In this document: piece by piece, positions 4,018 through 50,455 of the stretch
How positions within the stretch are numbered: position 1 is the stretch's first letter
Layout of the letters: every line of letters starts with the position of its first letter
Assembly: GCA_017535315.1 (NCBI GenBank)
Contig: JAFXUD010000062.1
Span: 62,001-126,000 of the forward strand
DNA length: 64,000 nt
From: Victivallales bacterium
GTDB lineage: Bacteria > Verrucomicrobiota > Lentisphaeria > Oligosphaerales > Oligosphaeraceae
Direction of reading: 5' to 3'
Notes under the pieces: generated by a model
The model's database searches: none
Told to the model about the DNA's origin: nothing
The model's input: the letters and a program-made list of their open reading frames with translations, nothing else
Program-made: the position numbers and the translations under genes

Positions 4018-4156
4018 CAATTAGCAATTAGATAAGGTGTTTAGTCATGCTAGCCATTACCTAACTTCTAATTTCAAATTGCTAATTGCTAATTGCTAAT
4101 TGCTTATTTCAAATTGCTAATTGCTAATTACTCCTAACCATTAATCACTAACCACA
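4013..4156. repeat. Degenerate heptamer array in inverted arrangement (locus 1)
   Basis: TTAGCAA units at 4013-4030 are mirrored by CTAATTG units at about 4077-4130, with a run of CTAACCA/TTAATCA-type units up to 4156. The period is 7 bp. The two arms can pair as a long AT-rich hairpin. It fills the whole gap between the nucleotidyltransferase and the kinase, and its first units supply the upstream stop codon. Related arrays lie at 7641, 28731 and 44419. Confidence 0.8.
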
Positions 4157-7634: not shown

Positions 7635-7640
7635 CACAGA

Positions 7641-7693
7641 AATTAGCAATTAGCAATTATAAATTCGAAATTAGAAATTGCTAATAGCTAATT
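7641..7693. repeat. Degenerate heptamer array in inverted arrangement (locus 2)
   Basis: AATTAGCAATTAGCAATTA is mirrored by AGAAATTGCTAATAGCTAATT, again with a 7-bp period. It sits just downstream of a stop codon and directly upstream of the rpsP promoter. It is a shorter version of the array at 4013-4156. Confidence 0.7.
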
Positions 7694-28693: not shown

Positions 28694-28730
28694 GAGACGA
28701 CAACAAAACGGACAGAATCTTGCAATTTGA

Positions 28731-28836
28731 ATTAGCAATTAGCAATTAGCAATTGAGCAGAAACAAGGGAGTGAATGCTGTTCTCCATAGGTGAATAATT
28801 CCAATTGTAAATTGCTAATTGCTAATTGCTTATTTT
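28731..28836. repeat. Degenerate heptamer array in inverted arrangement (locus 3)
   Basis: ATTAGCAATTAGCAATTAGC (28731-28750) is mirrored by AATTGCTAATTGCTAATTGC near 28811-28830. The right arm encodes the last residues (Ser-Asn) and the TAG stop of the leftward nucleosidase gene. Confidence 0.8.
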
Positions 28837-29499
28837 AAGATATTCCAACAAACGAGGCAATCGGGCATTCATCTGCGCAAACAGCTTTAGGAATGTCGTG
28901 AAATCATCACAGGCAAGCGAGGAATCCGAGGTAGCTGCGTTGTTGGAGATGACGCGAATCGTGCCGAAGCGCACGGCAATGCCGCTTTTTTCACGCAGCC
29001 TATAGCAGAATTCCGCTACGGCGGATGTTTCCATATCCACAGCGTATGCCTGCGCCTCAATGGGATTTCCGCGTGCTTGTGCAGGGTCGAAGATATCCCC
29101 TGAGCAGACAGGACCGATGACAGCACGATGCTCGGGAAACACAGTTTGAACTGCCTGCAAAAGCAACTCCGCCAGGGAGCTGTCCAGCGTATGCCAGAAA
29201 TCTGCCTCTGAAAAATCGGGGACGTCGCCCAGGCCCCGTGCGCCAGGAAGCGGCGTCAGACTGAAGTCCTTGTGTGCAGTTCGCCCCGCCACAACGATAT
29301 CCCCTGCGTGGAGTTCAGGCGAAAGGCTGCCAGCCGTGCCCCAGATGACCACTGTATCGCAGTGCTTTTTGAAGATGAGATCGGCTGCCGCCGCGCAGGA
29401 GGAGGATTTGCCTGGACCGAATCCCGCTGCAACCATGCAGCATTCTGGTACACCGACAGCCTCCATGTCCGTGGGAATGAGTAACCCTATTTTTGCCAT
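28822..29499 (-). CDS. Nucleoside phosphorylase / MTA-SAH nucleosidase-like protein
   Basis: This 225-aa protein of the PNP_UDP_1 family has the start MAKIGLLIPTDMEAV, GFGPGKSSS, WGTAGSLSPELHAGDIVVA, PVCSGDIF and the purine-site word AVDMETSAVAEFCY, in which Met-Glu binds the ribose. FGTIRVISNNA follows, with an Asn at the catalytic-type Asp position (family pattern RxISD), which is worth noting. The start at 29499 is preferred because GAGG lies 5 nt upstream and homology begins there; a longer frame to 29616 has no support. It probably cleaves 5'-methylthioadenosine, S-adenosylhomocysteine or a related nucleoside, for example futalosine. Confidence 0.85.
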   Translation of the reverse strand: MAKIGLLIPTDMEAVGVPECCMVAAGFGPGKSSSCAAAADLIFKKHCDTVVIWGTAGSLSPELHAGDIVVAGRTAHKDFSLTPLPGARGLGDVPDFSEADFWHTLDSSLAELLLQAVQTVFPEHRAVIGPVCSGDIFDPAQARGNPIEAQAYAVDMETSAVAEFCYRLREKSGIAVRFGTIRVISNNAATSDSSLACDDFTTFLKLFAQMNARLPRLLEYLKISN

Positions 29500-29545
29500 A
29501 CCATCCTCAACACTAATCAACCTGCCAGTAAATCTAAAAAACGCT

Positions 29546-29642
29546 CTGTTCCCTAAGAGGGTAGTTTTTGGAAGCCGCGGAGCGGCAACGCTCGTTAGGG
29601 CGCAACAAAAAAACATTGCCGTAATCTACCCTTGGGGAACAG
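29546..29642. repeat. GGGTAG/CTACCC-framed structured element, copy A
   Basis: The outer pair CTGTTCC (29546-29552) with GGAACAG (29636-29642) and the inner pair GGGTAG (29559-29564) with CTACCC (29626-29631) enclose the hairpin GCCGC-GGA-GCGGC. CGGCAA near 29583 can alternatively pair with TTGCCG near 29615. A second copy with the same frame lies at 50314-50409. The element lies in the divergent gap 29500-29770. Confidence 0.65.
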
Positions 29643-29725
29643 ATCAAAAAAATATAATGCTTTTGCCGAACCATGTCAAGTTTATCATCTCAAACCTTGC
29701 ATGATGATTGCTGACTTAAAGAACG

Positions 29726-29753
29726 TTGGATTGTATTTTTCAGTTATTATATT
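29726..29753 (+). promoter_or_regulatory. Putative promoter of the PSP1-domain gene
   Basis: -35 TTGGAT (29726-29731), 16-bp spacer, -10 TATATT (29748-29753) followed by ATTTT. It implies a start near 29760, which excludes the in-frame TTG at 29726 as the translation start. Confidence 0.5.
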
Positions 29754-29770
29754 ATTTTAAAGGGAAAAAC

Positions 29771-30976
29771 GTGGACTATATTGGAACATGCAACATGAAG
29801 CAATTATATACAGCACTAATCATCAATGGCATATCATACGAATGCCTGGGCGATGAGGAATTGGGCCTCAAAGACGGCGACATGGTCGTGGTCAAGTGCG
29901 AGCATTACTCGGACTGCGCAACCATCACTGGAAAAGTCGGAGAACCCATTGTGGATGTGGCGGAATTCGAGCGCCAGCGAAGCTTGAACAGCAAGGGACG
30001 CCATGTGGAAGGTTCTCTCACCCCTTTAATTATCCGAAAAGTCACCCCAGAGGATCTGGCGAAGGCGGAAGCGAACAAGCAGCGCGCCGAAACCTCCCAT
30101 CGGCAAACCAGGGAGCGCATCCAGGCCCATGGTTTGGAGATGAAACTCATCCACACGCACATTTCGTTAGATAACAAGCTCATTCTCTTTCAGTTCTCTG
30201 CTGACGGACGAATCGATTTCCGTGAACTGCTACGCGATTTGACAACCCTGTTCAGGATGCGCGTGGAACTCCGCCAAATCGGCGTGCGCGATGAGGCAGC
30301 CGTGCTGGGCGGAATCGGCATCTGTGGACGGCCATTCTGCTGCTCGCGCTTCCTGCATACCTTCAACAGCATCAATGTCAAAATGGCGAAACAACAGGGA
30401 ATCTCCCTCAACCCCCAAAACATCTCAGGTTGCTGCGGACGGCTGAAATGCTGCCTCTACTATGAGGCGGATGCCTACAAGGACGTGCCCATTACCGCCA
30501 AGGACAAGCACCTGAAGGTCGATGATGAAATGGACGAGAAGGAGCTTGAGAAGATGGATGAGCGCGAATCTGCCGATTCCGCTTCCAATGAGGAGCGCCA
30601 GCGTCCACGCCGTGATAATCGGGACGGTCGAAACAACCGCGACGGCGGGAAAGCAGACCGCCCACGCAGGGAGATACCCCAGCGCGACGTACAGCCCCGC
30701 GATAACAAACCACGGGATGTACAGCCACGCGAAAACAGGTCACGGGACGGCATGCCACGCAATCCGCAGCAAGGACTGCGTCCCCCTCATAGCAATGACA
30801 GCAATCTCCCATTGGGCGAGGAGGAGCAGCGTCGCCGCCAAAATTGGCAGCAAAGGAATGCCCAGGGGCACGGCGACAATCAGCAAAGACGCTCCAACAA
30901 GGGGAATCCGAACTCCCAAGCACCGAAACCGCCACGCATCATCAAGCAGCCACCCCAGCCTGGAAATGACAAATAG
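29771..30976 (+). CDS. PSP1-domain protein (RicT-like) with long basic tail
   Basis: The PSP1 C-terminal conserved region is clear: DGDMVVVKCEHYSD, FQFSADGRIDFRELLRDL, RMRVELRQIGVRDEAAVLGGIGICGRPFCCSRFL split as ELRQIGVRDEAAVLGG and CGRPFCC, then GCCGRLKCCLYYE. The paired Cys motifs bind an Fe-S cluster in the RicT homologue of B. subtilis, which acts in RNA processing. Beyond about residue 255 is a 145-residue low-complexity tail rich in Arg, Asp, Asn, Gln and Pro (RDxxPRD repeats), probably disordered and RNA-binding. The GTG at 29771 has AGGG 6 nt upstream; ATG 29795 is an equally possible start. Upstream codons precede the predicted promoter. Confidence 0.85.
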   Translation: MDYIGTCNMKQLYTALIINGISYECLGDEELGLKDGDMVVVKCEHYSDCATITGKVGEPIVDVAEFERQRSLNSKGRHVEGSLTPLIIRKVTPEDLAKAEANKQRAETSHRQTRERIQAHGLEMKLIHTHISLDNKLILFQFSADGRIDFRELLRDLTTLFRMRVELRQIGVRDEAAVLGGIGICGRPFCCSRFLHTFNSINVKMAKQQGISLNPQNISGCCGRLKCCLYYEADAYKDVPITAKDKHLKVDDEMDEKELEKMDERESADSASNEERQRPRRDNRDGRNNRDGGKADRPRREIPQRDVQPRDNKPRDVQPRENRSRDGMPRNPQQGLRPPHSNDSNLPLGEEEQRRRQNWQQRNAQGHGDNQQRRSNKGNPNSQAPKPPRIIKQPPQPGNDK

Positions 30977-40063: not shown

Positions 40064-40147
40064 GTCGTCCCAAGTCCCGCGTCCGTCGTCCCAAGTCCCG
40101 CGTCCGTCGTCCCAAGTCCCGCGTCCGTCGTCCCAAGTCCCGCGTTC
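40064..40147. repeat. 21-bp tandem repeat, four copies
   Basis: Four adjacent 21-bp units (40064, 40085, 40106, 40127) each consist of GTCGTCC-CAAGTCC-CGCGTCC, themselves three 7-bp words ending GTCC. The last unit differs at one base. A partial inverse copy, GAACTTGGGACGGAGGAC, lies at 40019-40036. The array fills the gap between convergent genes. There are no unique spacers, so it is not CRISPR. Confidence 0.95.
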
Positions 40148-44436: not shown

Positions 44437-44556
44437 TGGTTAGTATCATGTGCATGATGGAGAGTGCTAATCATTAGTTCCTAGCCCCTAAGCCATATTT
44501 TCCGCCCCATCTCCTAATCACTTATCACTAACCACTAATCGCTAATCACTAACCAC
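44419..44556. repeat. Degenerate heptamer array in inverted arrangement (locus 4)
   Basis: Left-arm units TGGTTAG, TTATTAG, TGGTTAG (44419-44447) face right-arm units CTAATCA, CTTATCA, CTAACCA, CTAATCG, CTAATCA, CTAACCA (44513-44556), all with a 7-bp period. The left arm encodes the Val-Val-Val-Ser-Tyr end and TAG stop of the kinase. The right arm ends 4 bp before the next start codon. Confidence 0.8.
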
Positions 44557-49361: not shown

Positions 49362-50281
49362 TTCAGCACCTCCAATATGATACCCTTGTAGATACCGCCG
49401 GCCTGTTCAGCATCCTCGACCCGCACGACAATGCTGTTTTCTGCGCCCCAACGAAGCTCTTTTGTACAATCCACCTTGAACGGGATGTTCCACCCCCTGG
49501 TTCCCAAGTTGTGTTGTCCAACAAAGGTGCCGTTGACCCAGACCCAAGCCGCCTCGTCAACTCCAAGGAAATGGAGTTCGGAAGCCTGTGCGCCCTCTGG
49601 TTTTTCAGGCAGTTTTAGTTTCAGGCGATACCAGGCAATGCCATCGTAGGGAATGCCCTGCCGCTCCCAGGAGAGTCCGATGGAGATGGGGCGCCACTCC
49701 GAATCGTCTAATGTCTCCAAGAAGAAGGGCTTTTCGCCCCGATGTCCCATCTCGCTCTCGTCTGTCTTGAAGAGCCAGCCGTTCTTTGGCAATTCGATAG
49801 CCTTTAAAGTAACCACCTCATGGTCATTGGCGGGGTTGCTGGAGTAGAGCGTGACCTCTCTGAAAAAGTCAAAACCAAGAGCTCTGGAAGCCGCCTTGCG
49901 CACCTCGGATACCTTCGATGCCGCAAGCACCTTTTCTGCAATGGCTTCCCTTTCTCCCTTGTCCTCCAGGGCACGTGCCAATTCCACCACCATGATGCAG
50001 ACCTCGGGGGAATCATCTGCCACCATTTTGTGCATGACAGGAAGCGCACGCTTCCTGTCATGCATAAACAGCTCGTAAATGGCTATTCTGCGAATCTGGG
50101 CATCCCTGTCCTTTAGACCAAAAGCGACGGCCTTCTCGAATGTCTCCGCTGAATAAAGCAGTTTCTTGAAGGCCTTTCGGCGCAGCACTACATCCGAATT
50201 CTCTTGAAGGGTTGTCCAGCTCTCGTGACCAAACAAGCCAAACGCCCAAAAAAGGGCAAGAAACAGAATCGTTTTCTTCAT
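49358..50281 (-). CDS. Secreted HEAT-repeat plus galactose-binding-like protein
   Basis: This 307-aa protein has a signal peptide (MKKTILFLALFWAFGLFG), then HEAT-like helices (about 25-150: DAQIRRIAIYELFM, DDSPEVCIMVVELARALEDKGER), then a jelly-roll domain (about 165-305). In that domain, IAWYRLKLKLPEKPEGAQAS, FLGVDEAAWVWVNGTFVG and WNIPFKVDCT are typical of the GH2 N-terminal sugar-binding fold. No catalytic domain is present. It probably binds carbohydrate and assists the large secreted protein encoded immediately downstream, with which it overlaps by 4 bp. An element of the GGGTAG family lies in its leader. Confidence 0.78.
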   Translation of the reverse strand: MKKTILFLALFWAFGLFGHESWTTLQENSDVVLRRKAFKKLLYSAETFEKAVAFGLKDRDAQIRRIAIYELFMHDRKRALPVMHKMVADDSPEVCIMVVELARALEDKGEREAIAEKVLAASKVSEVRKAASRALGFDFFREVTLYSSNPANDHEVVTLKAIELPKNGWLFKTDESEMGHRGEKPFFLETLDDSEWRPISIGLSWERQGIPYDGIAWYRLKLKLPEKPEGAQASELHFLGVDEAAWVWVNGTFVGQHNLGTRGWNIPFKVDCTKELRWGAENSIVVRVEDAEQAGGIYKGIILEVLK

Positions 50282-50313
50282 AATGCTTTCCTGATTGAGT
50301 TTTCTTTAACGCT

Positions 50314-50409
50314 ATGTTCTGCAAAAGGGTAGGTTGTGTCTAGGTAAACTAGACAATCTAAAAAAACTAGAGTTTTTAGAAGAAACTACCCTCATGGCAA
50401 ATAGAACAT
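50314..50409. repeat. GGGTAG/CTACCC-framed structured element, copy B
   Basis: ATGTTCT (50314-50320) pairs with AGAACAT (50403-50409), and GGGTAG (50327-50332) with CTACCC (50386-50391). Inside are two hairpins, TGTCTAG-GTAAA-CTAGACA and CTAAAAA...TTTTTAG, so the whole can fold as a three-way junction. The frame matches copy A at 29546-29642; on the minus strand both read GAGGGTAGTTT and CTACCCTT. Confidence 0.7.
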
Positions 50410-50455
50410 TCATTGAAAAATTAAATATATATCAAATCAATGTTTTTTCAATGAA
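50409..50455. repeat. 12-bp inverted repeat
   Basis: TTCATTGAAAAA (50409-50420) and TTTTTCAATGAA (50444-50455) are perfect inverse copies around an AT-rich 23-nt spacer. It adjoins element B in the 413-bp divergent gap 50282-50694, which contains no gene. It may be an operator or transcript hairpin. Confidence 0.6.

Follow-up and report, generated by a model that had tools for sequence, protein, structure and literature searches.

Among prokaryotic MITEs, small mobile DNAs that carry no genes, QMITE2 of Coxiella burnetii is described (PMC10969869) as having direct repeats of 7–9 bp, TIRs of 23–29 bp, a core of 113–145 bp and strong folding. In these four respects its architecture is close to that of the Lentisphaeria family considered below; the likeness is one of description and is to elements of another organism, and the Lentisphaeria interiors vary while the ends are held in common. 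BrickBuilt of Porphyromonas gingivalis (PMC4596501) also has inverted-repeat ends, between which a minisatellite can be housed, and minisatellite-type repeats occur in Lentisphaeria elements (L095/L124 and L074). The duplications made by BrickBuilt are of variable length and sequence, whereas those of the Lentisphaeria family are of 8 bp. The NEMIS, or Correia, elements (CREE) of Neisseria are likewise short inverted-repeat elements adjoining genes, whose expression they can alter when transcribed (PMC2649163), an effect that in the Lentisphaeria family would be no more than possible.

The host of that family is a gut bacterium of the class Lentisphaeria, and the window, by which is meant the whole stretch of 64,000 nucleotides analysed, holds two copies, A and B. 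The ends of NEMIS/CREE differ from those of the Lentisphaeria family. Copies A and B are almost certainly worn members of a MITE family dispersed over dozens of intergenic sites. What was found is an undescribed family, not a new RNA, and its kind is well known: its architecture agrees with the account of prokaryotic MITEs in PMC10969869, and the limited set of literature searched held no previous report of a MITE family from Lentisphaeria.

Copies A and B within a dispersed family

The two structures that a preliminary description had picked out are present where it placed them: each has a GTTC/GAAC outer arm (TCTGTTCCCTAAG/CTTGGGGAACAGA in copy A), then an internal loop, then GGGTAG/CTACCC, with GGGTAG at 29559 and the CTACCC end at 29631 in copy A, and at 50327 and 50391, respectively, in copy B. 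Inside this common frame the interiors do differ, copy A being of type 1 with a deletion and copy B of a CTAG-rich type. The limits first given were right in position and slightly too tight in extent, the full terminal repeats making the units longer:

28822..29499, minus strand: neighbour gene, MTA/SAH-nucleosidase-like (PNP_UDP_1), start codon at 29499, 42 bp from copy A
about 29542..29646, no strand assigned: copy A, a 105-bp MITE of interior type 1 with an internal deletion, by end-to-end alignment with type 1
29542..29563, plus strand: copy A left TIR, CGCTCTGTTCCCTAAGAGGGTA, 1 mismatch to the family consensus
29625..29646, minus strand: copy A right TIR, degenerate, TGATCTGTTCCCCAAGGGTAG on the minus strand, with a 2-bp deletion
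29651..29679, minus strand: promoter-like TTGACA-17-TATATT directed through copy A toward the nucleosidase gene, 11/12 consensus matches, called by consensus only
29795..30976, plus strand: neighbour gene, RicT/YaaT (PSP1 domain)
start at 50281, minus strand: gene beside copy B, HEAT/glycosidase-domain protein, starting 28 bp beyond copy B
about 50310..50408, no strand assigned: copy B, a 99-bp MITE whose interior, with CTAG-rich hairpins, is of a minor type
50310..50331, plus strand: copy B left TIR, CGCTATGTTCTGCAAAAGGGTA
50387..50408, minus strand: copy B right TIR, degenerate, TGTTCTATTTGCCATGAGGGTAG on the minus strand
50424..50451, minus strand: promoter-like TTGAAA-16-TATATT directed through copy B toward the gene at 50281, 10/12 consensus matches, called by consensus only

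Common to the two, around their differing interiors, is an imperfect terminal inverted repeat of ~22 bp, YGCTMTGTTCYCCAWGAGGGTAG, the TIRs of copy B having 2 and 4 mismatches. The pairing GGGTAG...CTACCC has an expectation of 0.00 in shuffled windows, and TGTTCCCCAAGAGGGTAG at up to 3 mismatches has 2 matches in the window against 0.05 expected. The repeats flanking the copies are imperfect (CTAAAAAA/AAAAAATA, 5/8, for copy A; TTCTTTAA/TTCATTGA, 6/8, for copy B) which, together with the degenerate right ends, is as expected for old insertions; since neither has a clean target duplication, their own mobility is argued from family membership.

The one-end pattern YGCTMTGTTCYCCAWGAGGGTAGNTWA matches the 4.9-Mb draft genome 49 times at up to 3 mismatches (reversed control, 0), so that copies A and B belong to a set of dozens and are not the 'two-locus' element first envisaged, and the search for further matches that had been proposed found many. 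Counts in the genome are from pattern searches and extracted stretches, about 40 sites being extracted; for target duplications the left and right ends were paired in all extracted loci and their flanks read, giving 42 paired-end elements. In 19 of the 42 the flanks carry an exact direct repeat whose length is exactly 8 bp, whereas shuffling of the right flanks among elements gave a mean of 0.47 and a maximum of 4 in 5000 shuffles; none of the 42 has direct repeats of 9 bp or more. Most of the duplications have a TTNNNNWW-like target preference, with T at positions 1–2 and A/T at positions 6–8. Going by the flanks as read, an exact 8-bp duplication is the signature of what would be DDE transposition with an 8-bp stagger.

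In keeping with MITEs, the family has TIRs (~22–27 bp, at both ends), target duplications in its younger copies and multiple dispersed intergenic copies, and its elements are short (<500 bp) and non-coding, those in the window being of 105 and 99 bp and the main type ~190 bp; no transposase lies inside the elements, and the few that exceed 500 bp do so via nested or tandem repeats. It is thus the 'uncatalogued mobile element', one of several options in the preliminary description, that the dispersed copies, TIRs, exact 8-bp target duplication and absence of coding capacity bear out. A DDE transposase, encoded by an autonomous insertion sequence and acting in trans, would recognise the ends, cut or copy the element and insert it with an 8-bp stagger. 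The two ends would then decay independently, as left and right ends of one element are seen to do, and recombination between repeated hairpins may shorten the interiors, the probable way in which copy A arose.

Some matches and arrangements stand apart. Those to the pattern at L003, L004 and L005 were set aside, as they lack the outer TIR and their GGGTAG/CTACCC pairs are due to chance. At L006 (G000:C78:225108-225200) the right outer arm is lost and GGGTAG/CTACCC kept, followed by a further hairpin, GCGCCCTTTCGGGCGC. At L088:4746-6617 two elements flank 1.7 kb with an AraC-like ORF, their outer flanks sharing TTCATAAA, as if a composite unit had moved, and their inner flanks being unmatched.

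RNA structure, DNA ends and neighbouring genes

Could the outer pair and GGGTAG/CTACCC instead have been kept as RNA structure, in a conserved non-coding or cis-regulatory RNA family? Predicted folding is strong in both copies (MFE z-scores for the plus strand against shuffled sequences of -4.9 for copy A and -3.9 for copy B), promoter-like sites precede both, and in the type-1 alignment five interior pairs have changed in both partners (at columns 148/155, for instance, A-U against C-G), changes that could be a few inherited events or quasi-palindrome correction. The TIR stem, however, has 0 double-sided changes among 13 aligned type-1 elements, and departures from the TIR consensus in 42 elements are uncompensated in 174 cases versus 9 compensated on the other arm, so that the frame is conserved as DNA ends and not as an RNA stem; the agreement of left and right arms shows no clear difference from shuffles (p 0.065; 42 elements). 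Exact 8-bp duplications flanking the units, the random orientation of neighbouring genes and the presence of a good promoter-like site outside the ends in only 2 of 28 own elements also tell against an RNA family, as does Rfam, whose covariance models had 0 matches in the window at the gathering threshold and 0 in both copies at E<=1. The reading is very improbable, and the conserved non-coding RNA once offered among the options lacks support. The elements, being short, palindromic, intergenic and in many copies, with GCGCCC...GGGCGC interior hairpins at many places in the genome, also recall REP/BIME-like palindromic repeats, which a RAYT (HUH) transposase and not a DDE enzyme would have spread. 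HUH transposition is not known to give a target duplication of such a kind, and sharp ~22-bp TIRs with an exact 8-bp target duplication argue so strongly against this origin that it deserves scarcely any credence.

A MITE origin having been preferred, it is possible, if somewhat doubtful, that copies A and B have in addition become structured 5' UTRs that change the expression of two minus-strand genes. The gap between promoter-like site and element is 5 bp for TTGACA-17-TATATT at copy A and 16 bp for TTGAAA-16-TATATT at copy B; the genes toward which the two sites read begin on the far side of the elements, at distances of 42 and 28 bp, and a transcript from either site might, incidentally, carry the element as a structured 5' UTR. 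Against this, both promoters are called by consensus match only, relatives have not kept the synteny, and folding of the copy A 5' leader, taken as far as the start codon, is no stronger than that of shuffled sequences (z -0.28), which also counts against an RNA family. The 'regulatory leader' of the preliminary description may be retained for these two loci, as a local accident; it is not a family-wide trait, since copies A and B are the only 2 of 28 own elements with such a promoter-like site, a number judged close to background.

Of the own elements, 20 had flanks long enough to place them among genes: none is inside an ORF, and by automatic ORF calling their neighbouring genes are tandem in 9 cases, divergent in 6 and convergent in 5. 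Copy A was counted as tandem through a spurious ORF and, when read by hand, has the nucleosidase and ricT genes on its two sides, in divergent orientation; copy B is likewise between divergent genes. A terminator role was considered and dismissed, there being no terminator-like site at copy A or B and no preference for convergent genes. Outside copy A, a 31-bp AT-rich stretch upstream of ricT (29728-29760), 94% conserved in a same-genus genome (G046), is probably the ricT promoter. Elsewhere in the window there are satellites of 7-bp units (GCAATTA, CTAATTG, CTAATCA, CGTCCCA) at 28722-28834, 4061-4129, 7638-7679, 40064-40145 and 44514-44556, with a pair of heptamer satellites arranged as an inverted repeat at 28730-28834, and heptamer or 21-mer units recur across it.

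Relatives and a putative autonomous partner

The TIR pattern at up to 2 mismatches is present in 14 of 198 genomes of the class Lentisphaeria, 10 of them in the host's own family, with 0 for every control and no match in viral contigs. The ends also occur in named relatives, which are MAGs of Lentisphaeria and Victivallales obtained from rumen and horse faeces. Outside the own family, matches in the four genomes are few and may in part be chance, though at L156 a 7/8 duplication is seen by eye.

IS6, IS1595 and ISL3 are families with 8-bp target duplications. The profile models of their transposases (PF13610 for IS6/IS240, PF12762 for IS1595, PF01610 for ISL3) have no match in the own genome, which does not bear out derivation of the MITE from any of the three. 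No recognisable transposase lies alongside unpaired single ends, no autonomous partner was found in interiors at contig ends, and no partner autonomous IS with the same ends was found, a weak absence in draft MAGs, which break at repeats. In relatives, many ends lie no more than ~150 bp from where a contig stops. It is therefore probable that the family interrupts these metagenome assemblies, and an IS in multiple copies could be missing from them. The recognisable ends are a handle for finding the missing transposase. An end at L157 beside the ORF MTTPFEILSLIQDLTE... resembled a transposon start and was discarded, a near-identical stretch, with no transposase match, occurring in G043 without the end. 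The short ORF MTTPFEILSLIQDLTEKQFDRLRQFI and its upstream region occur in two genomes (L157:1501-1700, L243:540-760), with a TIR in front in one case and none in the other. No clean empty site was found in relatives for copy A, sought via ricT orthologues, upstream genes being different there, or for copy B, whose context likewise differs.

Hairpin-rich interiors

The main interior, type 1, in a whole element of ~190 bp, consists of successive GC-rich hairpins: GTTGCGCCCTTGCGGGCGC, a long CCCCCACGCTGCGCGCCC... arm and its complement, TTGCGCACTCCGTGCGCT and GCCGCTTCGCGGC. Copy A, taken on the minus strand, aligns end to end with it but for one internal deletion, which is found also in L028, and is 94% identical to L010 over 65 bp. 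Through this deletion the first and third hairpins have come together; as these share sequence, recombination between them would be a simple origin. The CTAG-rich interior of copy B is related to an element at G000:C79:26901-27035. Other interiors hold GGACCTAAA minisatellites (L095, L124) or nested repeats (L092, L116, L123), and some are particular to other genera (L065, L067, L072, L081, L139). Folding z-scores of 36 interiors have a median of -3.1, with 67% below -2 versus 18% of adjacent flanks. Within GGGTAG elements at L123 (in the interior of the element at 147-584), L092 and L116 sit insertions of another repeat family, which has the ends GGGAATTATGTACTTTAGTTGCC...AACTCAAGTAAATAATTCCC and hairpins of GCCGCGACAGCGGC and occurs also near L113.

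The most unusual point, and it is a mildly unusual one, is that TIRs are shared across genera while hairpin-rich interiors are exchanged. In a bolder version, which we regard as unlikely, this would be a cargo-swapping MITE, its ends, a single set recognised by the transposase, conserved across Lentisphaeria genera and families and its interior giving way again and again to unrelated palindromic or minisatellite DNA peculiar to each lineage, with hairpins that keep their complementarity. If that were true, the foldback structure itself would be required or favoured for mobility. With its common ends and exchanged hairpin interiors, the family is a tractable case for the origin of MITE interiors.
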